NCBI RefSeq assembly: GCF_000169155.1
Contig: NZ_AAWL01000003.1
Span: 62,001-126,000, forward strand
Reading direction: 5' to 3'
From: Thermosinus carboxydivorans Nor1
Lineage (GTDB): Bacteria; Bacillota; Negativicutes; Sporomusales; Thermosinaceae
Length of the DNA stretch: 64,000 nucleotides
Shown: piece by piece, positions 7,980 to 30,318 of the stretch
Layout: each line of letters begins with the position of its first letter
How positions within the stretch are numbered: the first letter of the stretch is position 1
Notes under the pieces: generated by a model
What the model was told of the DNA's origin: nothing
Databases searched by the model: none
What the model saw: the letters and a program-made list of their open reading frames with translations, nothing else
Made by a program: the position numbers and the translations under genes

Positions 7980-8093
7980 ATAACGTGGCGGTAGCCGAAG
8001 AGATTTTGACCTATGTGCTGCGGGATATGACCGCGCCGGAAGAGGGCTTTTATTCGGCCGAAGATGCCGATGCAGGAAGAGGGGCTGGACCTA
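7980..8093 (+). pseudogene. Remnant of a YyaL/DUF255 thioredoxin-domain gene
   Basis: A short stretch encodes [26 protein letters not shown], matching the conserved RDMT...[10 protein letters not shown] block found inside the roughly 650-residue YyaL (thioredoxin/N-acylglucosamine epimerase-like) proteins. No start, no other domain and no continuation are present, and the frame soon runs into the end of the hydrogenase gene on the other strand. It is best read as a fragment left by a deletion. Confidence 0.6.
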
Positions 8094-9557
8094 TTGGGGG
8101 AAACCGCCTAGGTCTGTCAGGATTTTGCCTGCCGGGCGCCGGTCAGGGATGCAGCCAGCCTGGCGCAGGTGCTGGCGAAGGGGGGCGCTGATGAGGTGGG
8201 CGGCGCAGGTGAAACAGGGGTCGAAGGAGCGGATGACGCGCCCCACTTCAATCAGACTTTCGGGAGCGGCGATGGGGGTGCCGATGAGGGCCTCCTCGAC
8301 CGGGCCGCGCTGGCCCAGATTGTCCCGGGGCGAGAAATTCCAGGCTGTTGGCGTGACAATCTGGTAGTGGCTGATTTTGCCTTCTTCAAAGCGCAGCCAG
8401 TGGCCCAGCGCGCCGCGCATAGCTTCCAGAAGGCCGACGCCTTCGCCGCGGGGTGGCAGGGTATAGGGCGCCAGCGTGGGCGCGCCGGGAGCTATCCGCG
8501 CCAGCCATTCCTGGGCCAGCCGGCAGATTTTGAGCGCCTCGCGGGCCCGGGCGATCAGGCGGTCCATGACCGAGATGCCGCGCCGGTACTCACCGCTGAT
8601 CCATGCCCTAGCCAGCGGTCCGGTCTCGGCCGGCAGACGGCCATAGCGCGGCGCCTTGCACCACGAGTAGGCCGCTGACTTGTCCGGGGCGGCTGCGGTG
8701 CGGCCCTCGATAGGGTGACGGCTTTCCTGATCGTCCTGATACCAGCCATGGTGAATGTGCTCGGTGATGCGGGTGAGGTCAAGCGGTTGGGGGAGGCCGC
8801 CGTTCTCCACCAGGCCGACGGGAAAGGCAGGCTGGCCGGTGCCCGGCTCGGGAAACCCGCCGTACGACAGGAAATGACCATAGCCCCGGCCGATGGTGAA
8901 ATAGTCTTGATAGTACTCGGCGATGGTCAGTACGTCCGCAAGGTAGACTTTTTCCACCCATTCCTTGATTTCTTGCAAAATGGCACCATAGGCCATCAGC
9001 CGCTCGGCATTCGCCCGTTCGGTCACGCCGGTAGGCATGATGGTTTGTTGGTGGGGGGCTTTGGCACCAAACAATGCCATCATTTCATGTGCGCGGGCGG
9101 CCAGGTCGAGGGCGGGGCGGACATGGCCGAACAGTTCGTCGTTGAGCTTTTTGGGCAAGCGAAAGTCGCCCTTGGTGCGGGGGAAAAACGGGGCGCTGTC
9201 CGGCCCGGTCACATAGTCGGGCAGGACCAGCAGGTAAAAATGGCGCAGGTGGTTTTGCAGAAAATCGGCGGCCATCAGCAGGTTGATGAGATACTGGCCG
9301 GCCGGCGTGGGCTGGACGCGGCAGGCGCTGGCCAGCGCCTGGGCGGCCGCAACGGCATGGGCGCTGGAGCAGATGCCGCAGATACGCTGAACAAACAGCG
9401 GGGCATCGCGCACGTCGCGACCGGTGAGCATGAGCTCCACGCCGCGAAACAGACAAGCGCCAATCCAGGCGTCGACTACGCGGCCGCCCTGGACGTCCAC
9501 TTCCACACGAATGGGCTCGTGGATGCGGGTGACAGGAAACAACGTTTTGACGGTCAT
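8091..9557 (-). CDS. NiFe hydrogenase large subunit
   Basis: Catalytic subunit of a group 1-like membrane-associated uptake NiFe hydrogenase (H2 to 2H+ + 2e-), 488 residues. The four Ni/Fe ligands are present: RICGIC (Cys60, Cys63) and DPCFTC (Cys448, Cys451). His454 is the expected processing site. The peptide after it is about 34 residues, longer than the usual 15 or so. The gene starts one base past the end of the small-subunit gene. No maturation protease or hyp genes lie in the window, so they must be encoded elsewhere. The small subunit carries the Tat signal for co-export. Confidence 0.92.
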
Positions 9558-9558
9558 G

Positions 9559-10800
9559 TTACCGCCCCTTTCCGTCCTTGTCCTCGGTGCGCCAGAAGTC
9601 GGCCAGCCGCCGCAAAAACGACTTGCGGCGCCTGGTGGCGCGATAGCTTTCCAATTTTTTGGTTTCCGCCAGGAGGGCGTTTTGCTGGCGAATAAGGTCG
9701 TCCAGTTCCTGCTTGACTTGTTCTAGGCTCTCCGGTGGCGTCGGGTCGCTCGGCTTGGTGCCCTCGACAAAATGTTTGTGGATGCGGCGGGCAAAAATGC
9801 TGGCCGCCAAATGGGTGCCCACTGCGCCCGCGCCGAGGGCAGCCACGGCGGCGCCGGTTTTGGCGGCGCTGATGGTTACTGCCGGCGTGCGGATATCGGG
9901 CAGGTAGTTGTAAAAGGGCATTAAGCCGTCAGGGAAATAGGGACTGGCGCAGCCGATGCACGGCGTGCCGGCTTTGACCGGCCAGTTGACATAATGGTTC
10001 CACTGGCGCAGCGGACAGTCAGCATGGGTGACCGGTCCCTTGCAGCCTACTTTGTAAAGGCAGCCGTCATCGCCGGGAAAGTCGGCGAAAATGCCGTCTT
10101 CAAACTGCTGCCGCCGCTGGCACAGCTCGTGAACGGTTTTGCCAAAAAACATTTTTGGTCGGTTATAAGCGTCCAGCTGGGGCATACCGTATAGTAACAG
10201 GTGGGTAAGCGTACCGGTTATCCAGTCGGGGTGGGCCGGGCAGCCCGGGATATTGATGACGGTCTGACTGACTACTTTCCCCACTCCCTTAGCACCGCCC
10301 GGATTAGGGTAGGCGGCGGAGGGACCGCCATAGCAGGCGCAATCGCCTACGGCTATGATGTATTTGGCCTTGGGGGCCATTGCGCGCACCGCCGCCAGGC
10401 CGGTGACAGCCTGGTCCCGCCGGTCGATGAAGAGAATATCAAACTTGCCGTCCGCCGCCGTCATGACGGCGCCTTCTACGATAAGCCAAAAGTTGCCTGC
10501 TTCCCGCTCTACCGTATCGTACAAAAGGTCAATGACCGGCGCCCCTTGGGCGGCGTTGAGCAGCCAGTGGTAGCGGAGGTCAATCATGTCGAACAAAAGC
10601 TGGTACAAGGTGGGATTGACGGCGTTATCCAACGAAATGGAGTTGCCGGTGCAGCCGCCCAGCTCCAGCCAGATGACCGGGGGCTTGGCTGACGGTTTTG
10701 CGGCGTAAACTTCCTGTACCAGGGGGTAGAGTTGTTCGGTCAGGCTAAGGGAAAGGGCGGCGCTGCTGCATAATTTGAGAAACGCGCGGCGGGTCAGCAT
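9559..10800 (-). CDS. NiFe hydrogenase small subunit, Tat-exported, unusual proximal-cluster site
   Basis: Electron-transfer subunit, 413 residues, with a Tat signal (TRRAFLK) at residues 3-9. Medial and distal cluster ligands are visible (VHELC, GCLYKVGC, HADCPL, PCIGC), as are two proximal-cluster Cys (GDCAC and IPGCP). The N-terminal proximal motif, usually C-x-G-C, reads C-T-G-N at residues 50-53, so one Cys is replaced by Asn. After a C-terminal hydrophobic helix (about 310-330) comes an unusual 70-residue charged tail with coiled-coil character. The Tat signal and C-terminal helix place the enzyme on the outer face of the cytoplasmic membrane. Confidence 0.92.
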   Translation of the reverse strand: MLTRRAFLKLCSSAALSLSLTEQLYPLVQEVYAAKPSAKPPVIWLELGGCTGNSISLDNAVNPTLYQLLFDMIDLRYHWLLNAAQGAPVIDLLYDTVEREAGNFWLIVEGAVMTAADGKFDILFIDRRDQAVTGLAAVRAMAPKAKYIIAVGDCACYGGPSAAYPNPGGAKGVGKVVSQTVINIPGCPAHPDWITGTLTHLLLYGMPQLDAYNRPKMFFGKTVHELCQRRQQFEDGIFADFPGDDGCLYKVGCKGPVTHADCPLRQWNHYVNWPVKAGTPCIGCASPYFPDGLMPFYNYLPDIRTPAVTISAAKTGAAVAALGAGAVGTHLAASIFARRIHKHFVEGTKPSDPTPPESLEQVKQELDDLIRQQNALLAETKKLESYRATRRRKSFLRRLADFWRTEDKDGKGR

Positions 10801-11464: not shown

Positions 11465-12574
11465 ATGTTTCGCCTGAAGCGGCAAATTATCTGGTGCGAC
11501 CTTAGCGTCCTTTGCGGTTTGTTAATAAGACGCGTGAGCGCGGTTGTCCTTATGCTGGCCTTGGTGTTTGTCCTGGCGGGGCCGGCGCCGGCCGAAGCAG
11601 CGCTTATCAGTACCAAGGAAGAAATATCGATCGGCCGCGATGTGGCCAAGGATTTGGAAAAAAAATACGGCCTGGTCGACGACCCGGCCTTACAGGAGCG
11701 GGTTGCCCGCATTGGCGCCCGCCTGGTAGAAGTGTGTGACCGCAAAGAACTGCCATATACCTTTAAGGTGTTAAATTCCAAGGAAGTCAATGCCTTGTCC
11801 CTGCCGGGCGGTTTTATTTACGTGTTTAAGGGTCTGGTAGACTATATGCCGTCCGACGAAGAGTTGGCCGGTGTTCTGGGCCATGAGCTTGGACACGTCG
11901 TCAAGCGGCACAGCGTGCGCCAGATGGAAAAGAGCCTGGCGGTAAGCCTGATTTTCGGCGCCGTGCTGGGTGATCGGGCAGCACTTTTGCAAAATTTGGC
12001 CTATAACGCGATTATGGCCGGGTACAGTCGCGACGACGAGCGTGAGGCCGACTATCTCGGTTATCTTTATAGTACGCGGGCGGGCTACAACCCCTACAGC
12101 ATGATCATGGCCATGCAAAAACTGGCTGACTTGGAGAATAAACCCAGTTATGGCATCTTTTCGTCTCACCCCGAGCCGGAAGCACGGCTGGGGCGACTGC
12201 AAGCGTACATAAAAAAAGACAATATCCGGCCTCAGGTCATCGTCAGCGGCAAAAGCGCCCAGGTCGTGGACGGCACATGGCAGCTGCCGGCTTTTTTCAG
12301 TGCCTACAATAACTATAAACCGATATACCGCGCCTATTTCACCGCTGGCGCTCTCTATCAGGTGGCTCAACACTATCCTAATTTGTCTGGCGACTACTTC
12401 TATTTGACCAGCGACGGTACCAACATGACCGTCTACTATGACGACATGGCCATTACTACTCTTACGCCGGCCGATGCGGCCGATCACGGCCAGGACCTGG
12501 CCGCCTTTGCGGAAAACTATGTGCTTAAGCTGCGGGAATGGGCCGAGCGGCGCCGTACGGCCGCGACGGATTAA
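11465..12574 (+). CDS. Secreted M48-family zinc metalloprotease
   Basis: 369-residue M48 peptidase. The N-terminus has a hydrophobic export signal (about residues 22-45, ending near PAEAA). The zinc site HELGH is at about residue 140 and the third ligand Glu lies in READYLGYLYS. This is the architecture of BepA/YfgC-like envelope proteases that degrade misfolded exported proteins. The last 110 or so residues after EPEARL show no domain I recognise. AGGAGG precedes the ATG. It is divergent from the hydrogenase operon and has its own terminator. Confidence 0.88.
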   Translation: MFRLKRQIIWCDLSVLCGLLIRRVSAVVLMLALVFVLAGPAPAEAALISTKEEISIGRDVAKDLEKKYGLVDDPALQERVARIGARLVEVCDRKELPYTFKVLNSKEVNALSLPGGFIYVFKGLVDYMPSDEELAGVLGHELGHVVKRHSVRQMEKSLAVSLIFGAVLGDRAALLQNLAYNAIMAGYSRDDEREADYLGYLYSTRAGYNPYSMIMAMQKLADLENKPSYGIFSSHPEPEARLGRLQAYIKKDNIRPQVIVSGKSAQVVDGTWQLPAFFSAYNNYKPIYRAYFTAGALYQVAQHYPNLSGDYFYLTSDGTNMTVYYDDMAITTLTPADAADHGQDLAAFAENYVLKLREWAERRRTAATD

Positions 12575-12636
12575 GTCTCGGCCTGCCACTCTGCCCGGCT
12601 GCGGCGGGCTATCCCGATGGTCGTCTGTGGTGCGAC

Positions 12637-12660
12637 AAAAGCCCCTGCGGGGGCTTTTTT
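12637..12660 (+). terminator. Terminator after the M48 protease gene
   Basis: AAAAGCCCC-TGC-GGGGGCTTTTTT, a short GC-rich stem with a T run. Confidence 0.85.
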
Positions 12661-12678
12661 CTAAGCGGAGGGGAGAGC

Positions 12679-14592
12679 GTGGGCAAGATAACGGTTATAA
12701 TACCATATTCCCAAATGCAGGCGGTCGTGGAACGGACGTTTCAGGAACAGAATGATCCGGGCTGGGAGCTGGATATTATTTTCGCTACCGGGGTACGGGA
12801 GATTGCCCGGCGGCGGGACTTCAGCACTGACGTTGTTGTGGCCCGCGGGGTGACGGCCGCTGCCTTGAAGCGGCTGATGGGCGATACGCCGGTTGTCGAT
12901 ATGCCGGTAAGCGGTTATGATATTCTGCGGGCCGTCAAAGCCTGCCAACAACGCTTTGCCGCCACCAAGATCGCGATTGTCGGTTCCCAGGACATGATTT
13001 ACGGAGCCAAAAGCATCGAAGATATTATGGACATCAAGCTGGCGGTGGTCGAGGTCCGGGAGGAGGATGACGCCGAACAGAGCATCCGGAACATTAAAAA
13101 TAGCGGGGTCGATATTGTCATCGGCGGGGTAATGTCGACGCAGATTGCCGAACGTCTGGGGCTTAAAACCGTGTTTATCGAAACCGGCCGGGAAGCGATC
13201 TATCATGCCCTGCGGGAAGCGAAACGGGTCGCCCGTGTGCGACGCCAGGAGCAGGAGCGCAGCGAACAATTCCGCACCATTCTCGACTATTCGACCGAGG
13301 GCATTATTACGGTGGATGCCGCCGGCGCCATTAATTTGGTGAATGCCGCCGCCATGAAAATAACCGGCTTGTCCGGAGAGGCGGTCGGCTTGGCTGTTGA
13401 CAAGCTGTTGCCCCAGCTGGGCTTGAGCCGGGTGCTGGCGTCCGGTCGGGCCGAGCTTGGCGAGGTCGAAACGGTGAACGGACAGCAAGTGGCCGTCAAC
13501 CGGGTGCCTATCATTATCAGGGGCCAGGCGGTCGGGGCGGTGGCCACCTTTCAGCCGGTAGCCGACATTCAAGCTCTGGAGGGAAAAATCAGGCAGAAAA
13601 TTTATAAGCGCGGTCTTGTCGCCCGGTTGACGTTTGACGATATCCTGGGCGACAGCCCGGCCATCCGCCAGACAATCGCCATCGCTCGCGAGTTCAGCAA
13701 GGTAAACTCCAATGTATTAATCACCGGTGAAACGGGAACGGGTAAGGAGATTTTCGCCCAGAGCATTCATAACGCCAGCAGCCGCCGCAAGGGGCCGTTC
13801 GTAGCGGTCAACTGCGCCGCTTTGCCGGAAAACCTGCTGGAAAGCGAACTGTTCGGCTACGCCGAAGGCGCATTTACCGGCGCGGCGCGCGGCGGCAAGA
13901 TGGGCTTGTTTGAACTGGCCCACGGCGGCACGATTTTTCTCGATGAAATCTCGGAAATCTCCCCCAAACTGCAGGGACGGCTGCTCAGGGTCCTGCAGGA
14001 ACGGGAAATTATGCGCCTTGGCGACGACCGGGTCATTCCGGTCGATGTCCGCATTATTGCCGCGACCAACCGCGACCTGTACCAAATGATGCAGGCCGGC
14101 CTGTTCCGCCAGGACCTTTATTACCGGGTGGACGTGCTGAAACTGGTCCTTCCGCCGCTTAGGGAGCGGCAGGAGGATATTATCCCTCTCATGCAGCATT
14201 TCCTCAAGCTATATTGTCTGCGGTCCAACCGGCCGGTCAAGGAAATCGGCCCTGACGCCCAGGCGATGCTCCGCCGGTATCACTGGCCGGGCAATGTGCG
14301 GGAATTGCGTAATATTGCCGAGCGGCTGGCGGTCTTGGCCAGCGGTCCGGTTATCGGGGCGCGCGACATTGCGGCTGTCCTTACCGGGGAGACAGGCAGG
14401 AGAAAGGCGATAAACGAGACGGCTGAGCCGGCCGCGGCGCTTGCCGGAGCCAATGATGTGGACCTTAACCGGGCCATCCTGCTAAAAGCGTTGGAAGAAG
14501 CGGACTACCATTACGGCCGGGCCGCGGCCAGGCTTGGCATCAGCCGGACGACGCTGTGGCGGCGCCTTAAGCAATACCAGGTAGGGGAATAG
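12679..14592 (+). CDS. PrpR-type sigma-54-dependent activator
   Basis: Enhancer-binding protein of about 637 residues. The N-terminal PrpR_N sensor domain (about 1-190) is the small-ligand domain known from the propionate activator PrpR. It is followed by a PAS domain (about 200-300), an AAA+ domain (Walker A GETGTGKE and the sigma-54 contact loop GAFTGA) and a C-terminal Fis HTH (GISRTTLWRRL). The GTG at 12679 is chosen because GGAGGGGA precedes it. The longer frame reads back through the terminator. The next promoter is of the -24/-12 type, so it very likely drives the CODH-like operon. The signal is unknown. Confidence 0.9.
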   Translation: MGKITVIIPYSQMQAVVERTFQEQNDPGWELDIIFATGVREIARRRDFSTDVVVARGVTAAALKRLMGDTPVVDMPVSGYDILRAVKACQQRFAATKIAIVGSQDMIYGAKSIEDIMDIKLAVVEVREEDDAEQSIRNIKNSGVDIVIGGVMSTQIAERLGLKTVFIETGREAIYHALREAKRVARVRRQEQERSEQFRTILDYSTEGIITVDAAGAINLVNAAAMKITGLSGEAVGLAVDKLLPQLGLSRVLASGRAELGEVETVNGQQVAVNRVPIIIRGQAVGAVATFQPVADIQALEGKIRQKIYKRGLVARLTFDDILGDSPAIRQTIAIAREFSKVNSNVLITGETGTGKEIFAQSIHNASSRRKGPFVAVNCAALPENLLESELFGYAEGAFTGAARGGKMGLFELAHGGTIFLDEISEISPKLQGRLLRVLQEREIMRLGDDRVIPVDVRIIAATNRDLYQMMQAGLFRQDLYYRVDVLKLVLPPLRERQEDIIPLMQHFLKLYCLRSNRPVKEIGPDAQAMLRRYHWPGNVRELRNIAERLAVLASGPVIGARDIAAVLTGETGRRKAINETAEPAAALAGANDVDLNRAILLKALEEADYHYGRAAARLGISRTTLWRRLKQYQVGE

Positions 14593-14739: not shown

Positions 14740-14755
14740 TGGCATGAAATTTGCT
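14740..14755 (+). promoter_or_regulatory. Sigma-54 promoter of the CODH-like operon
   Basis: TGGCATGAAATTTGCT has the GG and GC elements with exactly ten bases between them, close to the consensus TGGCACG-N4-TTGCA. It sits 56 bases before the first operon gene and just downstream of a sigma-54 activator gene. Confidence 0.88.
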
Positions 14756-14810: not shown

Positions 14811-15557
14811 GTGAAAGTCGACGAGACAAAGTGTTTGGGTTGCGGACGTTGTCGGGCGTACTGCACGATGGGGGCGATCCGCTTTACCCGCGACGACCGC
14901 GGCCGGGTGGTGGCCGAGGTTGACCAGCACGAATGCGTAGACTGTGGCGTGTGTTTCCGCGCCCAAGTCTGCCCGGGCGATGCGCTCTACGAACCAGTGC
15001 CGCAGTGGCCCCGGTCGGTGCGCGGCACGTTCAGCAATCCCCTGGTAGAGCACAAGGAGACGCGTATTCCCGGACGGGGCACCGAAGAAATGAAAACCAA
15101 CGATGTTACCGGCCGCTTTAAGTGGGGCGAGGCCGGCATGGCCGTGGAAATGGGCCGGCCGGGCATGGGGGCGCGGTTTACTGACATTGAAAAAGTGGCC
15201 ATGGCCATTGCTGCCCTGGGCGATATCACGTTTGAACCGAAAAACCCCCTTACCAGCCTGATGGTCGATAAGAAGACCGGCAAAATGCATCCGGAAGTAA
15301 TGGACGAAAAGGTGCTGTCGGCCATTATCGAAATGACGGTGCCGCTGGCGCGCGTACCGGAGGTCATTGACGCGGTCCGGAGAGTTGCCAAAAAGATCAA
15401 TACCGTGTGCAGTTTCGACCTGACCTGCAAGGTCCACCCCGGCGACACGCTGCCGGCCTTTGAGTTGGCGCAAGCGGCCGGGGTGCAGCCCACGCCCAAC
15501 GGCAAGACCAACGTGGGGCTGGGCAGACCCCTGTTTGTGGAGGAGGTGCGGCAATGA
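14811..15557 (+). CDS. Dicluster ferredoxin fused to an unrecognised domain
   Basis: 248-residue protein. Residues 1-65 form a ferredoxin with CLGCGRCRAYC and CVDCGVCFRAQVC, likely two [4Fe-4S] clusters. The remaining 180 residues (from about RGTFSNP) are a domain I do not recognise, with conserved-looking FKWGEAGMAVEMGRPG and VCSFDLTCKVHPGD segments. The start is GTG after GAAAGGAG. It is first in a sigma-54 operon with a CODH-like enzyme, and its stop overlaps the next start by four bases. It may be an electron carrier or scaffold for the CODH-like complex (inference). Confidence 0.75.
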   Translation: MKVDETKCLGCGRCRAYCTMGAIRFTRDDRGRVVAEVDQHECVDCGVCFRAQVCPGDALYEPVPQWPRSVRGTFSNPLVEHKETRIPGRGTEEMKTNDVTGRFKWGEAGMAVEMGRPGMGARFTDIEKVAMAIAALGDITFEPKNPLTSLMVDKKTGKMHPEVMDEKVLSAIIEMTVPLARVPEVIDAVRRVAKKINTVCSFDLTCKVHPGDTLPAFELAQAAGVQPTPNGKTNVGLGRPLFVEEVRQ

Positions 15558-16195
15558 GCCATACATTGCACCGGCGCGGCACAACCGACAGTCTGAAAAA
15601 CGATTATGTCATCTTTGCCATGTCGGCCAAAGGAATCAACGAAGCGGGGTCTCATGTCAAACTGCAGCGTTTTCTTGAGATTATCCGCCAGTTTAATCCG
15701 GTGAACCTTGGCGACATGAAAACCGGCAATTCTTTTATTACTTCTCCGGAAACTATCATCGGCAATACCAAGGACACTTCCATTGTCCACGGCGTGTTTG
15801 ACAACCGGGAGGCGCTGATTAAAGCCCTCAAGGCGGTCAAGGAAGCCGACCTGGGTGTGTCGGTCATTATTTCCGGACTGCTCGACGACGTGCACGAATG
15901 CTGCCGCCAGGCGGGCGTCGACCGCCATACCTGCGAGACGTCGCTTGGTATCTGGGGTAAGACCGAACGGCTGCCCGACGAGGATATCCTGCGCTTTACG
16001 ACGATGTGCGGCCACGGGATGGTCGCGTTCAGTCTGGTAAAGAAAATGATCGAGGATATCAAGGCCGGCCGGCGCACTGTCCGGGAAGCGGCCGAAGAAC
16101 TGGCCAAACCGTGCCAGTGCGGCGTGTTTAACCCGAGCCGGGCCGCCGCCATGCTTGAAGAAATTTTATGCCTGTGGGGGGTTAGGATTGCCTAA
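15554..16195 (+). CDS. Unknown protein of the CODH-like operon
   Basis: 213 residues, soluble, no signal or membrane segment. I do not recognise a family. Visible features are an N-terminal FAMSAKGINEAGSH segment, a central VSVIISGLLDDVHECCRQAGV segment with adjacent cysteines, TTMCGHGMVAF, and a C-terminal PCQCGVFNPSRAA motif. The Cys and Gly-His content would suit metal or cofactor binding. The four-base overlap with the ferredoxin fusion gene implies coupled translation and perhaps a complex. Confidence 0.65.
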   Translation: MSHTLHRRGTTDSLKNDYVIFAMSAKGINEAGSHVKLQRFLEIIRQFNPVNLGDMKTGNSFITSPETIIGNTKDTSIVHGVFDNREALIKALKAVKEADLGVSVIISGLLDDVHECCRQAGVDRHTCETSLGIWGKTERLPDEDILRFTTMCGHGMVAFSLVKKMIEDIKAGRRTVREAAEELAKPCQCGVFNPSRAAAMLEEILCLWGVRIA

Positions 16196-16228
16196 CCGGC
16201 CGACAGGCGGTAAAGGACGGTGGATGGT

Positions 16229-16783
16229 ATGAAACGGATATGGGTTGACCGTGATAAATGCCTGGGTTGCAAAACCTGTGAACTGCAATGCGCCGTGGAA
16301 CGGAATTCAGTCGCCAAAACACTGGTCGGGGCCGTCCGGGAAAATCCCAAACCGGTAGCGCGGGTAGAGGTATCCGGGCCGACCGGGGCCAGTTTCCCGC
16401 TCCAGTGCCGGCACTGTCAGGACGCGGCCTGTCTGAAAGCCTGTCCGTCCGGCGCGATGCGGCGCAGTGACGAGTGGCAAACGGTTTATGTTGATCAGTC
16501 CCAATGCCGGGGCTGCTGGATGTGCGTCATGGTCTGCCCGTTCGGGGCGGTGACGCCGCTACCTGCATACAAGGTAGCTCACAAGTGCGACGCCTGCGTG
16601 GATATGGAGGAGCCGGCCTGTGTGGCTTCTTGCCCTACCGGCGCGCTTTATTACGGGGATGAGGCGGCGTATGAGAAAGCGCTGGCGGCCAGGCGCGGCC
16701 GCATTGCCGTCTTTGTTAAACAAGCGCCGGGCGTGGGTCGGACGAATGTTGTCAGCCTAGATTTCGTGCGGGAGGATGAGTAG
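16229..16783 (+). CDS. CooF-like polyferredoxin
   Basis: Iron-sulfur electron-transfer protein of about 184 residues in the CooF/HycB/DmsB family. Four Cys groups can be seen: CLGCKTCELQC, CRHCQDAACLKAC, CRGCWMCVMVC, and CDACVDMEEPACVASC with its partners, consistent with four [4Fe-4S] clusters. CooF proteins carry electrons from CO dehydrogenase to hydrogenases or other acceptors. It lies three bases before the CODH-like gene. The ATG at 16229 is preferred. An in-frame GTG three codons earlier is possible. Confidence 0.88.
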   Translation: MKRIWVDRDKCLGCKTCELQCAVERNSVAKTLVGAVRENPKPVARVEVSGPTGASFPLQCRHCQDAACLKACPSGAMRRSDEWQTVYVDQSQCRGCWMCVMVCPFGAVTPLPAYKVAHKCDACVDMEEPACVASCPTGALYYGDEAAYEKALAARRGRIAVFVKQAPGVGRTNVVSLDFVREDE

Positions 16784-16786
16784 ACG

Positions 16787-18235
16787 ATGAAACAAGTGCG
16801 CAAGAAATCAGCCGATGCGGCGGTTAACCAAATGATTATAAAAGCGTACCGCAGTCAGACCGAACTTACCTGGGACCGGGCCGAAGCCATGCAGCCCCAA
16901 TGCGGGTTCGGCCGGCTGAGTATTTGCTGCAGCGACTGCTATGACGGCCCGTGCCGCGTTAATCCCTTTGCCACGGTCGAGCAGCGCACCATCTGCGGCC
17001 GGGGCCAAAAGGAACTGGCGGCAGGCTATTTTCTGCGGAAAGTGACGGACGGCGCGGCCGGCCTTGTGCAACTGGCCGCCGAATTTGGCGCTCCTGTTAG
17101 CCAGGATATGTGGGAAGCGGTAGTGTGTTCTGGCGATGACATGCTGGCGCCCACTGCCGGTACGGAGCGGCTGGCGGCGGCCGGGCGGGCCGCCGTCCAA
17201 GCGCTCGCGGCAATCGCCGAAGTGAAGGAGCGCATGTGCGATCAGGCAGCACCGGGGGTCACCCAGGCCGGTCTGGGAACGCTCAAAGCCGAGATGCCCA
17301 ACATTGTCCTGCACGGTCATATTGCGCCCCAAGTGGTTGAGTTACTCGTTCAGGCGGCAGAACGCTCTGGGACGGTCAATATAGTTGCCATGTGCGGCAA
17401 TGAGCTGGGCGCTCCTCATCATTTGCCGGCCCTTACCAATTACCAGTCCCAGGAAACGCCGCTGTTAACTGGCGCCGTTGACCTGTTGATCATTGGCTCT
17501 CAGTGCGTAATGCCGGCGACGTTGTCCTTGGCCGAGCAGCTTAACGTGCCGGTGGTGAAGGCTGCGGCTCTCCGGGATGCCCAGGCTGCTGCGCAGGCTA
17601 TCGCCATGGCGCAAGAAGCTTTCCGTCGCCGCAATGGTCGTAGTGTTGATATTCCCGCAGCGTCAGCCGCCGTCCAGGCGGGCTTTACGGCTAACAGCGC
17701 GGCGGTAGCGGCCGGCCTGGTGAAAGGTTATGGCCAGGGGATTGTCCGTGGGGCTATCTACCTCGGCGGCTGCGGTCAGTTAGCCGCTACCCAGGATGCG
17801 GCGATTGTCCAGTTGGCGCAAGAACTGCTCGCCGACGACTACTTGGTTGTTACCGGCGGCTGCGCCGGGGTGGCTTTGGCCAAAGCCGGACTGTGCCGTC
17901 CGGACGCCGCTGAAGGCGAGGCCCTGCGGTCGGTACTGCCGCACGGTGTCCCGGCGGTTCTTTCGATTGGTTCCTGTCATGACGCCGGCGAGTTTCTGCG
18001 TTTGGCTGGGGCGTTGCAAGCGAGCGGTATTCCGGTGACTGCCGTTATGCCGGAGGTTACCCATGGCAAAGTTTTGGCTACGGCCGTCGGTTTTGCCGGA
18101 CAAGGCATTGTTACTTTCCTGGGCCTGGGCGAAGCGGCGGAGGTCAGCGGCCTTTACGGTGAGGAGCGGCTGCTGCCCTTGACCGATTTACGGCAACTGC
18201 CGCAGGCGTTGGCCGAAGTTGCCGCCGCCCAATAA
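16787..18235 (+). CDS. Short CooS-like (mini-CODH) Ni-Fe-S protein
   Basis: 482-residue homologue of anaerobic Ni CO dehydrogenase, whose usual length is about 630-640. The D/B-cluster cysteines are all present (39, 47, 48, 51, 56, 70). C-cluster ligand equivalents are His176/178 in LHGH, Cys203, Cys240, Cys329, Cys359 and Cys397, and the active-site Lys equivalent is Lys428 in THGK. Missing is the helical region around residues 80-170 of full-length CODH, including the catalytic His and the following histidine ladder (H-x2-H-x2-H pattern). The neighbours are a CooF-like carrier and an FAD oxidoreductase. It may oxidise CO by another proton route or act on another substrate. Confidence 0.85.
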   Translation: MKQVRKKSADAAVNQMIIKAYRSQTELTWDRAEAMQPQCGFGRLSICCSDCYDGPCRVNPFATVEQRTICGRGQKELAAGYFLRKVTDGAAGLVQLAAEFGAPVSQDMWEAVVCSGDDMLAPTAGTERLAAAGRAAVQALAAIAEVKERMCDQAAPGVTQAGLGTLKAEMPNIVLHGHIAPQVVELLVQAAERSGTVNIVAMCGNELGAPHHLPALTNYQSQETPLLTGAVDLLIIGSQCVMPATLSLAEQLNVPVVKAAALRDAQAAAQAIAMAQEAFRRRNGRSVDIPAASAAVQAGFTANSAAVAAGLVKGYGQGIVRGAIYLGGCGQLAATQDAAIVQLAQELLADDYLVVTGGCAGVALAKAGLCRPDAAEGEALRSVLPHGVPAVLSIGSCHDAGEFLRLAGALQASGIPVTAVMPEVTHGKVLATAVGFAGQGIVTFLGLGEAAEVSGLYGEERLLPLTDLRQLPQALAEVAAAQ

Positions 18236-18253: not shown

Positions 18254-19465
18254 ATGTATGTCATAATTGGTCAGGGGGCGGCCGGAACGGCTGCCGCCAA
18301 TACCTTGCGGCGGCTGGACGGGAAAAAGGCGATAACGGTAATAACCAGGGAAACCGATTATTTTTACAGCCGCGTCGACCTGCCCGACATTATCGCCGGG
18401 TATTACCCGCCGTCGGCCGCGGTGCTGCAGACCCATGAACGGTTTGCCGAACTGGGGATAACCTGCCGGATGGGGGAGACGGTCACGGCGATAATGCCGG
18501 ACAAGAAAATCGTTCGGCTGGCCGGCGGCGAATGTCTGGAATATGAGAAACTGCTGGTGGCGACGGGATCGGCGCCGGTCCTGCCGCCTATCGCTGGCCT
18601 GGAGGCGAAAGGAGTTTATACCCTCTGGACGATGGCCCAGGCGGAGGCCATTATCCGGGCTGCCGCCAGGGCGCGCGCTGCCGTGGTCATTGGCGCCGGC
18701 CTGATCGGCGTCAAGACGGCCCTGGCCCTTGCGGCGCGGGGGCTGACCGTTACCCTTGTCGAAAAGCTGCCGCGCGTTTTGCCCCGCCAGGTGGACGCGG
18801 CGGCGGCCGAAATTGTGGCGCGCCGCATAGCGGAAAAGGGCGTTGCAGTCATGACCGGGACGGTGGTGGAAGGCATCGTGACTGAGGACGGCGCCATTAC
18901 CGGGGTGAAAGTGGCCGGTCAAACGCTGGCCTGCGAGCTGGCGGTGGTGGCGGTTGGCGTCCGGCCTGACGCCGGGCTGGCCGCGCAGGCCGGACTCAAA
19001 GTGCGCCGCGGCATTGTCGTTGACCGTTTTCTCCAGACGTCGCTGCCTGACATTTATGCTGCCGGCGATGTTGCCGAAGTGCCGGACCTGACCGGGGGGT
19101 ATAGCATCCCGGCTCTCTGGCCGGTAGCAGTGGAGCAGGGGCAAGTTGCCGCCCGCAACATGGCCGGCCGCAAAACGGCCTATACGCCGGTTCCGGCGAT
19201 GAACGCGGTGGAAGTAGCGGGCCTGCCGCTTATTGCGGTCGGCGACGTCGAAGGCGGTCCTGGCGACGACATTCTCGTTGCCGCCCGGGGAGATAATTAC
19301 AAAAAGCTCGTCATCCGCGACAAAATCGTCCGCGGGGTGCTGTGCCTTGGCGACATCCGCCAGGCCGGGGTGCTGGGCGGGCTGGTTTTCCGCCAGGCGG
19401 AGGTCAGGTCGGCAAAACGGCTGCTGGCGCCGGATTTTGGGTTTGTCGATTTGCTTGCAATGTAA
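18254..19465 (+). CDS. FAD/NAD(P)-dependent oxidoreductase of the CODH-like operon
   Basis: 403-residue pyridine nucleotide-disulfide-type oxidoreductase, NADH/rubredoxin reductase-like. FAD motif IGQGAAGTAAANTL is at the N-terminus, NAD(P) motif VIGAGLIGVKTALALAARG is near residue 150, and the second FAD motif IYAAGDVAE is near residue 270. It follows the CODH-like gene by 18 bases with GGAGGCG upstream. In CODH-CooF-oxidoreductase clusters this enzyme passes electrons between the ferredoxin and NAD(P). The same role is inferred here. Confidence 0.87.
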   Translation: MYVIIGQGAAGTAAANTLRRLDGKKAITVITRETDYFYSRVDLPDIIAGYYPPSAAVLQTHERFAELGITCRMGETVTAIMPDKKIVRLAGGECLEYEKLLVATGSAPVLPPIAGLEAKGVYTLWTMAQAEAIIRAAARARAAVVIGAGLIGVKTALALAARGLTVTLVEKLPRVLPRQVDAAAAEIVARRIAEKGVAVMTGTVVEGIVTEDGAITGVKVAGQTLACELAVVAVGVRPDAGLAAQAGLKVRRGIVVDRFLQTSLPDIYAAGDVAEVPDLTGGYSIPALWPVAVEQGQVAARNMAGRKTAYTPVPAMNAVEVAGLPLIAVGDVEGGPGDDILVAARGDNYKKLVIRDKIVRGVLCLGDIRQAGVLGGLVFRQAEVRSAKRLLAPDFGFVDLLAM

Positions 19466-19536: not shown

Positions 19537-20445
19537 TCACTCAGGCATGCTCCCGACTTGCATGCCGGCGCTGTTGACAAGGGTTTGCCAGTAGAGGCTG
19601 ACGGCGGCGGGCATGAGGGCTGGATTGCATAGTCCGTAGAAGGTGCGGGTGATGCGCAGCCCTGGCACGGGGAGAATGGCCAGCCGGCCGGTTGCTACTT
19701 CGGCCTGGACGGCCCAGCGCGAGAGAAAGCCAGCGCCGGCCTTATGCAGGACGGCCTGTTTGAGGGCGGCGTTGCCGGTAACTTCCAGCGAGACTTTAAG
19801 CCGTTCCACGTCGATGCCGCTAGCGGTCAGCGCCGCCAGCAACGTGTGGCGTGAGCCCGAGGGCGCCTTGCGTAAGATAAGGGGCAGGTTTGCCAGTGCC
19901 GCGAGGTCGGGGAGGTGGATTTCCGCGAGCAGAGCGGGGTGGACCACCAGCACCAGTTCGTCCTGCCACAGGGGCTGGGCGGTGGGGTCGTCCGGCTTGG
20001 CGCCGACAACGGCGATGGGAAAATGGCCGCTAAAATAGGCGGTCAAGATGGTCTGACTGTCACCGGTCGTAATCGAGACTTTGACACCAGGATGGTGGCG
20101 CAAAAAGGCGGCCGTCAGGCCGGGCAGGATGTATTCGCCAGGGATGGTGCTTGCCCCGACCGGGATATGGCCGCTCGTGCCGGCCACCAGGGCCTTGATC
20201 TGGTTTTGCGCTTCTTCGAGGATAGCATTAACGCGGCGCGAATTTTCATAAAGCGTCTGGCCGTAGACGGTCAGTTCCACGCCTTTGGCTGTCCGCATAA
20301 ACAGCGGGCAGCCAAAATTTTTTTCCAGGTTGTCAATATGAAACGAAACGGTTGGCTGGGTCAGGCCGAGCCGTTTGGCGGCGGCGGTGAAACTGCCTTC
20401 TTCCGCCACGGCGCAGAAGACCGACAATGCCTGCAGATACGACAT
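19537..20445 (-). CDS. LysR-family regulator, divergent from yedE
   Basis: LysR-type transcriptional regulator of about 302 residues. Winged HTH at residues 1-60 (FTAAAKRLGLTQPTVSFHIDNLE), then a two-lobed effector domain (HIPVGASTIPGEYILPGL). The ATG at 20445 is chosen because GAGG lies upstream and the product then begins at the usual LysR position. It is divergent from the yedE-tusA-like genes with a 136-base spacer, so it probably controls them in response to a sulfur or selenium compound (inference). Confidence 0.88.
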   Translation of the reverse strand: MSYLQALSVFCAVAEEGSFTAAAKRLGLTQPTVSFHIDNLEKNFGCPLFMRTAKGVELTVYGQTLYENSRRVNAILEEAQNQIKALVAGTSGHIPVGASTIPGEYILPGLTAAFLRHHPGVKVSITTGDSQTILTAYFSGHFPIAVVGAKPDDPTAQPLWQDELVLVVHPALLAEIHLPDLAALANLPLILRKAPSGSRHTLLAALTASGIDVERLKVSLEVTGNAALKQAVLHKAGAGFLSRWAVQAEVATGRLAILPVPGLRITRTFYGLCNPALMPAAVSLYWQTLVNSAGMQVGSMPE

Positions 20446-20529
20446 GCAAAACACCTCATAATTAAGGTTCCACATTGCTGAAAAAACTTCCTACCGGCAT
20501 AACCGGCAGGAATATTTATCCAGGTATTG

Positions 20530-20543
20530 AATAAATCTTTATT
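20530..20543. promoter_or_regulatory. Candidate LysR site in the divergent region
   Basis: AATAAA-TC-TTTATT dyad between the LysR gene and yedE, in the place expected for a LysR activation site. The motif is AT-only and could be chance. Confidence 0.3.
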
Positions 20544-20581
20544 TATAATAAATTTTGCATATGGAGAAGGGGGAGTGATGT

Positions 20582-21655
20582 ATGAACATTGCACTCATGC
20601 TTGCGACCGGGGTGGTCTTCGGCCTTGGCGCCGTTTTGCTCGTTAAGCTGGGCAATCCCGGCAACTATGGGTTTTGCGCCGCCTGCCACCTGCGGGACAT
20701 TGCCGGGGCGCTCGGTATTCACCAAGCCGCAACGCTGCAGTATGCCCGGCCGGAGGTTCTGGGTTGGGTGTTGGGCGCCTTCGGCATGGCCAAAGCATCC
20801 GGCCAGTTCCGGCCGCGGGGTGGGTCGCGGCCGATGGTACGGTTTATCCTGGGGATGACAATGATGATAGGCGCCTTAGTGTTTCTTGGCTGTCCGCTGC
20901 GGGCCATCTTGCGGCTGGCGGCCGGCGACCTTAACGGTATTACCGGGTTGGCCGGCTTCGCCGCTGGCATTGGCGCCGGTATTTATTTCCTCAAACAGGG
21001 CTTTAACCTGGGCCGGGCCCGTCTGCACAGCGCCGCCGGCAGTTTGGCCGGTTATCTGGCGGCAGCCGTGGCGTTAGGTTTAGTTTTGGCTGTCCTGGTT
21101 AAGTCGCCGCTGCTTAATTTTAGCGCCAAAGGCCCTGGTTCATTGCACGCGCCGGTTTGGGCCAGCCTGGCGGCGGGACTGGCAGCCGGAGCGCTCGCCT
21201 GGCGCACGCGGATGTGTCTGAGCGGCGGTATCCGCGATTTTTTACTAGTAGGCGACACCTACCTCTTGAAAATTTACGGCGTTATGTTTCTCGCCGCTTT
21301 AGCCGGCAATATGTATTTCGGCTTTTTTAAGCTGGGCTTTATTAACCAGCCGTTAGCCCATACCATGCATATCTGGAATTTCCTCGGCCTGTTTGTTACC
21401 GGCCTGGCGGCGACGCTGGCCGGCGGCTGTCCGCTGCGCCAGCTCATTATGGCCGGCGAAGGCAATACTGATGCCATGATCTGCGTACTTGGCATGCTGG
21501 TCGGGGCGGGTATTGCCCATACGCTGAACACGGCCGCTTCACCGGCCGGTGTGGCCTTTAACGGGCAGGTCGCTGTTAGCATTGCCTTAGCCGTCACGGC
21601 CGTCATTGGCTGGATGTATCGTGAAAAACAGGCAGTTGCCGTGGAAGGAGTGTAG
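20582..21655 (+). CDS. yedE: YedE/YeeE-family membrane transporter, putative selenium transport
   Basis: 357-residue polytopic membrane protein with about nine to ten helices. It belongs to the YeeE/YedE family, in which signature cysteines line a thiosulfate or selenium-compound path. The corresponding segments here are FLGCPLRAI, RMCLSGGIRDF and AGGCPLRQLI, plus NYGFCAACHLRD near the N-terminus. It is followed after three bases by a TusA-like gene and then a DUF3343 gene, the arrangement seen in putative selenium-metabolism clusters. The substrate is inferred, not shown. Confidence 0.87.
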   Translation: MNIALMLATGVVFGLGAVLLVKLGNPGNYGFCAACHLRDIAGALGIHQAATLQYARPEVLGWVLGAFGMAKASGQFRPRGGSRPMVRFILGMTMMIGALVFLGCPLRAILRLAAGDLNGITGLAGFAAGIGAGIYFLKQGFNLGRARLHSAAGSLAGYLAAAVALGLVLAVLVKSPLLNFSAKGPGSLHAPVWASLAAGLAAGALAWRTRMCLSGGIRDFLLVGDTYLLKIYGVMFLAALAGNMYFGFFKLGFINQPLAHTMHIWNFLGLFVTGLAATLAGGCPLRQLIMAGEGNTDAMICVLGMLVGAGIAHTLNTAASPAGVAFNGQVAVSIALAVTAVIGWMYREKQAVAVEGV

Positions 21656-21658
21656 AGA

Positions 21659-21868
21659 ATGGACAAAGTATTGGACCTGCGGGGTTTGAGCTGTCCCATT
21701 CCCCTCATCAAAACCCGTGATGCTTTGCGAGACAGCAAGGTGGTCACTGTTCTGGTCGACGATATGCCGCCGAAAGAAAACATCCTGCGCTTTGCCAAGT
21801 CGCAGGGCTATAAAGTTGACTGCCAGGAGCGCGCGGGCGAATATACCATCCGTATTTGCCGGGAGTAA
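21659..21868 (+). CDS. TusA/SirA-family sulfur carrier
   Basis: 69-residue TusA-like protein with the conserved CPIP motif (Cys13) that carries persulfide or selenium-sulfur. It is typical of the small partner of YedE transporters. It lies three bases after yedE and four before the DUF3343 gene, so the three form one operon. Confidence 0.92.
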   Translation: MDKVLDLRGLSCPIPLIKTRDALRDSKVVTVLVDDMPPKENILRFAKSQGYKVDCQERAGEYTIRICRE

Positions 21869-26409: not shown

Positions 26410-26425
26410 TGGCACGTTGCTTGCA
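26410..26425 (+). promoter_or_regulatory. Sigma-54 promoter of atoE copy 1 / nfnAB
   Basis: TGGCACGTTGCTTGCA matches the -24/-12 consensus with GG and GC separated by ten bases. It lies 56 bases before the transporter start. Confidence 0.9.
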
Positions 26426-27926: not shown

Positions 27927-30139
<2,213 letters not shown>

Positions 30140-30302: not shown

Positions 30303-30318
30303 TGGCACGGAATTTGCT
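30303..30318 (+). promoter_or_regulatory. Sigma-54 promoter of atoE copy 2
   Basis: TGGCACGGAATTTGCT matches the -24/-12 consensus with exact ten-base spacing, 50 bases before the second transporter start. Confidence 0.9.

Follow-up and report, generated by a model that had tools for sequence, protein, structure and literature searches.

Ni-CO dehydrogenase (CODH) clusters linked to NAD(P)H are described as CooS-CooF-FNOR modules (PMC8776680, PMC6344411), and the operon analyzed here likewise encodes CooF, a protein of the CooS family and an NAD-linked flavoprotein (FNR). It differs from them by two proteins, Fd180 and P213, that are not described in the accessible text of these papers, and by the fact that CooS-like proteins linked to this pair mostly lack the C-cluster. 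The operon lies in a 64,000-nucleotide stretch of the Thermosinus carboxydivorans Nor1 genome (contig NZ_AAWL01000003.1), referred to as the window. A mini-CooS of this species (Techtmann et al. 2012, as cited in PMC8776680) is a short CooS with a complete set of metal ligands, like the one in the window; its operon partners are not presented as a separate widespread module in the part of PMC8776680 that was available. Another multi-subunit Fe-S enzyme passing electrons to NAD is the phenylglyoxylate dehydrogenase PadEFGHI. FNR of the window has its best match in PadH, and PadI is among the matches of CooF, but the operon lacks thiamine-dependent catalytic subunits and no family match of Fd180 or P213 to PadEFG was obtained. 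The N-terminal ~60 residues of Fd180 are similar to 2[4Fe-4S] ferredoxins (FwdF, the C-terminus of HdrA, clostridial ferredoxin), whereas the other ~180 residues have no counterpart there. Fe-S hydro-lyases such as tartrate dehydratase, fumarase and serine dehydratase possess three conserved cysteines and two subunits and belong to a hydroxycarboxylate setting. The pair is alike in all three respects and differs by its ferredoxin domain, its electron partners and the absence of sequence matches to the Pfam families of these enzymes. A keyword search (not a sequence search) of open-licence PMC articles did not find Fd180 or P213 in print, and the accessible text on the benzene-activation "Magic" cluster (PMC13101534) and on the reductive uric acid cluster (PMC12507026) gave no sign of them. 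Newness is claimed for the two protein families and their pairing, not for a reaction.

The two reading frames proposed by the first-pass annotation were confirmed (Table 1). Its statement that they overlap applies to Fd180 and P213, which have 4 bp (ATGA) in common, but not to P213 and CooF, which are separated by 24 bp. The CODH-like gene follows CooF after 3 bp, and FNR after another 18 bp. As a sigma-54 promoter is located behind a gene for a PrpR-type activator, the five genes from Fd180 to FNR look like one inducible operon, of which this activator is likely the regulator. The real start of the activator is probably downstream of the given one, because the PrpR_N match begins only at residue 82. 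Within the window three sigma-54 promoter matches were detected (0.19 expected), and a similar site was also seen before the first operon gene of L047 and of L060, the latter a locus containing the pair without CooS.

Table 1. Features of the Fd180/P213 operon and its control region (positions within the window)
Feature	Position	Strand	Remarks
PrpR-type sigma-54 activator (PrpR_N, PAS, AAA+, Fis HTH)	12538..14592	+	PrpR_N 9.6e-41, Sigma54_activat 1.8e-69
Sigma-54 (-24/-12) promoter, TGGCAT-N5-TTGCT	14740..14755	+	55 bp upstream of Fd180
Fd180: 2[4Fe-4S] ferredoxin domain (residues 1-60) and new ~180-residue domain	14811..15557	+	GTG start, 248 aa
Fd180 signature GRGTEEMKTN (residues 88-97)	15072..15101	+	G88, R89, G90, T91, E92, E93, K95, T96 invariant in 61/61
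P213: predicted ferredoxin-like alpha+beta domain, C-terminal part helical	15554..16195	+	ATG start, 213 aa; fold from AlphaFold2 model
P213 C152-G-H154, probable metal/Fe-S ligands	16007..16015	+	invariant in 88/88 aligned relatives
P213 C187-x-C189, probable metal/Fe-S ligands	16112..16120	+	invariant in 88/88 aligned relatives
CooF-type polyferredoxin, 16 Cys, electron partner	16220..16783	+	family search
Short CODH-like protein (mini-CooS), 482 aa, B- and C-cluster ligands all present	16787..18235	+	family searches, alignment
FNR: FAD/NAD-linked oxidoreductase, PadH/NirB-like, electron partner	18254..19465	+	family searches

Some other genes of the window were also recorded. The two further sigma-54 promoter matches (26410-26425 and 30303-30318) reside 5′ of short-chain fatty acid transporter genes (26442 and 30369), between which two genes resembling an Nfn-type NADH/ferredoxin oxidoreductase are located (27927-30139). 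Directly 3′ of the mini-CooS operon there is a selenium cluster (19537-21868) composed of a selenium-type LysR regulator on the minus strand, a YedE-type transporter and a TusA/YedF-like protein. On the minus strand (8091-10800), inspection by eye points to the large (488 aa) and the Tat-exported small (413 aa) subunit of a [NiFe]-hydrogenase.

The N-terminus of Fd180 contains two CxxCxxC...C motifs, the first of which (C8, C11, C14, C18) is present in 60 of 61 aligned rows (one gap) and the second (C42, C45, C48, C54) in all of them; with a Pfam Fer4 match of 1.1e-7 it classifies as a 2[4Fe-4S] ferredoxin. Outside the signature given in Table 1, the residues E113, G115, R116, P117, N145, P146, S170, E174, K232, G236 and G238 are invariant in 61/61. 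P213 possesses the motifs TTMCGHGM (residues 149-156) and PCQCGVFNPSR (residues 186-196), from which a metal or cofactor site had been suggested. Such a site is indeed probable by conservation, since C152, H154, C187 and C189 are invariant in 88/88 relatives, as are R7, G53, G101, G108, G135 and N193. The dense invariant Cys, His, Arg, Lys and Glu residues of both proteins are what one expects of an active site.

That neither P213 nor the 180-residue domain belongs to a recognizable family was borne out: no convincing curated match was obtained in Pfam or NCBIfam, and none in PDB sequences. P213 itself did not match any Pfam or NCBIfam entry, a profile search was likewise empty and the best PDB sequence reached only E 0.58. 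Matches of Fd180 in Pfam, NCBIfam and PDB were limited to the ferredoxin part (residues ~1-60). Scanning 88 relatives of P213 against the families yielded only weak, mutually inconsistent matches, and scanning 39 relatives of the isolated ~180-residue domain only weak, scattered ones (best 5e-4, RecA_C, in 3/39). At weak E values, DUF2099 appeared in one P213 relative and DUF749 in eight, while the fold search with Fd180 listed McrD. DUF2099 marks methanogenesis; the idea of such a marker was dropped as chance level, as neither DUF2099 nor DUF749 matches in the genome of the window.

Fd180 and P213 constitute an obligate two-gene module. Among 398 genomes drawn across the phylum, 26 contained P213-type proteins and 25 the Fd180 domain; together with 481 relatives in the GTDB species collection this argues against chance reading frames. 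In the phylum draw, 52 of 53 P213 genes (three short partial matches excluded) had an Fd180 domain within 1.2 kb, the exception being at a contig end. When 120 distinct copies from 80 + 32 loci were inspected, Fd180 was situated on the same strand within 300 bp of P213 in 117 cases. Of the remaining copies, two are close to the end of a contig, and the third is an additional P213 in tandem (L095). The 80 loci are the window and the best 79 of the 481 relatives by an alignment led by the window, a set in which CooS-linked pairs are over-represented, so that the phylum draw is the fairer sample. According to their record names, these best 79 belong to Bacillota, Chloroflexota (Dehalococcoidia, Anaerolineae), Deltaproteobacteria/Syntrophales, Nitrospiraceae, Methylomirabilota, Synergistaceae and Halanaerobium. 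All counts refer to sequences, not to independent events, and gene calls at the loci are longest ORFs, several short unlabelled neighbors probably being spurious. Up to about eight copies occur per genome: G021 exhibited seven P213 and eight Fd180 matches in different neighborhoods, as would suit a family of enzymes that differ in substrate. In two loci of this genome (L110 and L111), four pair copies reside within ~30 kb beside different partners, namely AOR, TctABC, ZnADH and, by eye, an M20-type peptidase; other copies are located elsewhere in the genome.

Our preferred reading, to which we give slightly less than an even chance, is that Fd180 and P213 together make up an undescribed two-subunit Fe-S enzyme, which catalyzes a redox reaction early in the anaerobic degradation of hydroxy- or oxo-carboxylic acids taken up by the cell. 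Instead of belonging to the CO enzyme, the two proteins probably form a novel type of enzyme for organic acids; carboxylates are proposed as the substrate class because of the neighboring genes and transporters. C152, H154, C187 and C189 of P213 would carry a [4Fe-4S] or mononuclear Fe site, and the substrate carboxylates would be held at the subunit interface by the invariant residues R7 of P213 and R89, K95, R116 and K232 of Fd180. Electrons would be exchanged between the P213 site and the Fd180 ferredoxin and then be passed to a partner module. This module would consist of CooF, a CooS-like dimer and the NAD-linked flavoprotein FNR in the window, and of an aldehyde:ferredoxin oxidoreductase, a 2-oxoacid:ferredoxin oxidoreductase or a fused NAD(P)H reductase elsewhere. 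The CooF/CooS-like/FNR set would then be one of several interchangeable electron routes to NAD(P)H, with the pair as the catalytic unit. A point against this reading is that P213 disclosed no recognizable flavin, nucleotide or thiamine site, so that the redox chemistry would be one without a known template. Interconversion of 2-hydroxyacids and 2-oxoacids or a related reduction as the commonest chemistry is a guess, and rather unlikely to be correct.

The neighborhoods of the pair are rich in genes for carboxylate uptake and conversion. TctA is the membrane part of tripartite tricarboxylate transporters. In the phylum draw it was found within 7 kb of 32 of the 53 P213 copies, compared to 1.1 expected from gene density under random placement, though a single TctA may be counted for several pairs in tandem. 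Of the 120 copies, 43 had a TTT, 15 a TRAP and four a 2-hydroxycarboxylate (2HCT) transporter on the same strand no more than 6 kb away, the latter identity being confirmed for L087. Enzymes in this range included PdxA (8), a BhcA-like aminotransferase (7), LarA (6), HIBADH-type proteins (6) and FdrA/AllG (4). GlcD, Ldh2, aconitase-like, PEP-mutase/ICL-like and IlvD proteins were neighbors as well. Identities were assigned by family search for representatives and by similarity for the rest, whereas Kor, HIBADH and TRAP DctP were recognized by eye. Other neighbors we take by eye to be FAH, CitE-like proteins, M20/M29 peptidases, threonine aldolase and Etf parts. In L079, L081 and L087, the 2HCT transporter is followed by the pair and by genes presumably encoding a 2-oxoacid:ferredoxin oxidoreductase (Kor) and a butyrate-kinase-like protein. 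Some operons comprise only a regulator, the pair and TctABC (e.g., L038 and L141, where the pair is the only catabolic gene), and the pair itself may therefore carry out the first catabolic step there. Two observations are less favorable to the enzyme reading: 9/120 copies had none of the named partners in this range, and the only TctA of the window's genome is on another contig and thus gives no transporter hint at the substrate of the window pair. A 2-hydroxyacid oxidase (GlcD/GlcF) adjoins the pair in L099; its presence in some loci speaks against a plain 2-hydroxyacid dehydrogenase there. A role specific for glyoxylate or oxalate, hinted at by GlcD, AllG/FdrA and BhcA-like neighbors, was not kept, as the neighborhoods are too varied. 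One locus containing the pair and TctC (L130:9800-10588) encodes a phosphosulfolactate synthase (ComA) homologue, which hints at a sulfonate branch.

The same neighborhoods bear on the rival that survives best, a non-redox Fe-S lyase (hydro-lyase or dehydratase) of hydroxycarboxylates, in which the three P213 cysteines would bind a [4Fe-4S] cluster having one open iron, the ferredoxin domain serving as a structural element or keeping this cluster reduced. We regard it as improbable. The three invariant Cys and the His of P213, the neighboring enzymes handling hydroxy acids and the operons that, apart from TctABC and a regulator, have no catabolic gene but the pair are all consistent with a lyase, but the recurrent linkage and fusion of the pair to electron carriers is unexpected for a redox-neutral enzyme. 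Moreover, IlvD or aconitase-like genes adjoin the pair in some loci, so that a lyase is sometimes already there, and no Pfam match of Fd180 or P213 to hydro-lyase families was obtained.

As to electron partners, CooS was found near 34, AOR near 17 and KorA near 7 of the 120 copies (same strand, 6 kb). CooS and AOR never occurred together (0/120 vs 4.8 expected; P 0.002, ignoring relatedness and contig ends). In the phylum draw AFOR/AOR was located within 7 kb of 6/53 copies, compared to 1.4 expected. Among the 31 CooS-linked loci, all retained the 16 Cys of CooF and 30 contained FNR. Natural fusions were also detected: in L093 P213 is joined to a CooF-type polyferredoxin, and in L083 an NAD(P)H-reductase module is attached to Fd180; Fd180 of L072 and L105 falls into the length class of the latter (708-711 aa). 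Directly after P213, L054 contains a RACo-type (ASKHA) corrinoid reductive activator (L054:10653-12689).

A CooS-like gene was present within 8 kb in 31 of the 80 loci, a best-hit sample biased towards the protein of the window. In the phylum draw, where CooS was checked in part of the neighborhoods, it adjoins at least 5/53 P213 copies (the window, G261, G281, G275, G081). Three genomes of this draw gave end-to-end mini-CooS matches; all three lie beside the pair. On a tree of 78 pairs (L092 and L109 of the 80 loci were left out, having no Fd180 on the contig), the CooS label needs five changes compared to a shuffled mean of 24.5, and at least three changes are forced by well-supported branches. 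The pair is combined with CooF, CooS and FNR in four gene orders: Fd180-P213-CooF-CooS-FNR (window), CooF-CooS-Fd180-P213-FNR, CooF-CooS-FNR-Fd180-P213 and Fd180-P213-FNR-CooF-CooS. As CooS occurs in a minority of loci, changes rarely on the tree and stands in four gene orders, we concluded that the partnership is real yet optional.

The first-pass annotation was therefore right to link the pair with CooF and the CODH-like protein in one operon; the four gene orders and the P213-CooF fusion back this. It had further taken the pair for a part of the CODH complex or a supplier of its substrate or cofactor, and this has to be reversed: the CODH is an accessory of the pair. The pair frequently occurs apart from short CooS, given the 31/80 (biased set) and at least 5/53 (phylum draw) cases with a CooS-like gene, most linked CooS-like proteins have lost the CO-oxidizing center, and 32/53 pairs adjoin TctA. 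We give little credence to a CODH accessory or complex subunit whose purpose is the use of CO-derived electrons or the delivery of a cofactor or substrate to CooS. The operon shared with an intact mini-CooS, the gene orders, the fusion and the position of all three end-to-end mini-CooS beside the pair would suit it, yet most pairs have no CooS nearby, the C-cluster is lost in most linked CooS-like proteins and ordinary CODHs lie elsewhere in the same genomes.

To compare the metal ligands, 33 full-length CooS-like proteins from pair loci (without two truncated fragments, L032 and L093) were aligned with 14 ordinary CODHs of the same genome set. The latter kept all 13 positions checked in 14/14 cases. 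The four B-cluster Cys were found in 33/33 pair-linked proteins, all seven C-cluster/Lys positions in only five (window, L031, L033, L034, L070). L127 retained the five C-cluster Cys and lost His and Lys, L131 and L136 kept four Cys and Lys, and a single C-cluster Cys was left in L082, L086, L096, L103 and L108. None of the five C-cluster Cys remained in 20/33. The mini-CooS of the window contains the B-cluster residues C48, C51, C56 and C70 as well as H178, C203, C240, C329, C359, C397 and K428, which by PDB alignments we take to correspond to H261, C295, C333, C446, C476, C526 and K563 of C. hydrogenoformans CODH-II. As it is intact, the window protein may supply electrons from CO as well. 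In L086 the C-cluster domain can still be aligned (131 bits) in spite of replacements at C240, C329, C359, C397 and K428, which indicates a loss within a homologous domain and not a misalignment.

By their C-cluster ligands, the 25 strongly degenerate proteins (20 with no, five with one C-cluster Cys; L035-L037, L039-L042, L044, L045, L047-L049, L051, L054, L056, L058, L066, L074, L078, L082, L086, L096, L103, L108, L138) do not qualify as Ni-CODHs, even though a family search names the C-cluster-less relatives CO dehydrogenase. Judging from their sequences, C-cluster-less proteins cannot oxidize CO by the known mechanism, and the loss of the Ni site with a kept B-cluster would fit a CODH retained as relay or scaffold. 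As far as their accessible text goes, Ni-CODH surveys were filtered by score, length or intact ligands (PMC6344411, PMC8776680), filters that would have dropped most of these relatives; likewise, a neighbor survey (eLife 2026) excluded clades G and H according to the part available (PMC13056359).

AlphaFold2 gave confident models (mean pLDDT 91.7 for P213 and 87.8 for Fd180), which suggest a ferredoxin-like alpha+beta domain in each protein, followed in P213 by helices carrying the Cys/His motifs. Fold searches with P213 revealed nothing beyond background (best E 0.037; best Z 7.0), and with Fd180 only the ferredoxin domain stood out. That the predicted folds are common alpha+beta ones without a close match is a point against the enzyme reading. 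The P213 model matched SbtB with Z 6-7 and the Fd180 model PII/CutA in weak rows (E 0.03-0.05), both levels typical of chance; matches to McrD, PII, ACT and de novo ferredoxin folds were set aside as background. The beta-alpha-beta elements run in a similar order in both models, but an internal duplication or common origin of Fd180 and P213 is not claimed, as their profiles gave only E 0.11 in hhalign (probability 0.5 percent, not significant).

Instead of being an enzyme, the pair might sense the redox state and, in a PII-like manner, regulate the carboxylate transporter next to it. This would accord with the alpha+beta arrangement common to PII, SbtB and CutA, if only by weak matches, and with the strong adjacency to the transporter. 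However, Z values of ~7 are background according to the fold-search program itself, the linkage to AOR, Kor and CooS/FNR and the reductase fusions would be left unexplained, and the many invariant charged residues with Cys and His rather suggest catalysis; such a regulator is as poor a candidate as the CODH accessory. That the pair matures or inserts a metal cofactor, such as Ni in CooS or LarA and W in AOR, is very improbable, for although Ni and W enzymes recur nearby (CooS 34, AOR 17, LarA 6 of 120), the TctABC, Kor and FdrA contexts have no common metal enzyme, the pair still accompanies CooS-like proteins whose Ni site is gone and it contains no ATPase or known metal-carrier motif.

Taking the pair as a carboxylate-converting redox enzyme, a wider picture is possible, if doubtful: a new class of Fe-S carboxylate enzymes in several anaerobic bacterial phyla, with many substrate-specific copies and plug-in electron modules, one of which would be a CODH recruited with its active site and later stripped to a bare B-cluster relay. 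The C-cluster-less relatives illustrate successive stages in a possible conversion of a Ni-Fe catalyst into an electron-transfer subunit. The module is present in many syntrophic, sulfate-reducing and fermenting anaerobes, with up to about eight copies per genome, and carries neither a Pfam nor an NCBIfam name. If the pair opens the breakdown of acids imported by TctABC, a group of catabolic operons lacking an assignment would become interpretable in Desulfosporosinus, Hungatella, Halanaerobium, Syntrophaceae and Dehalococcoidia.
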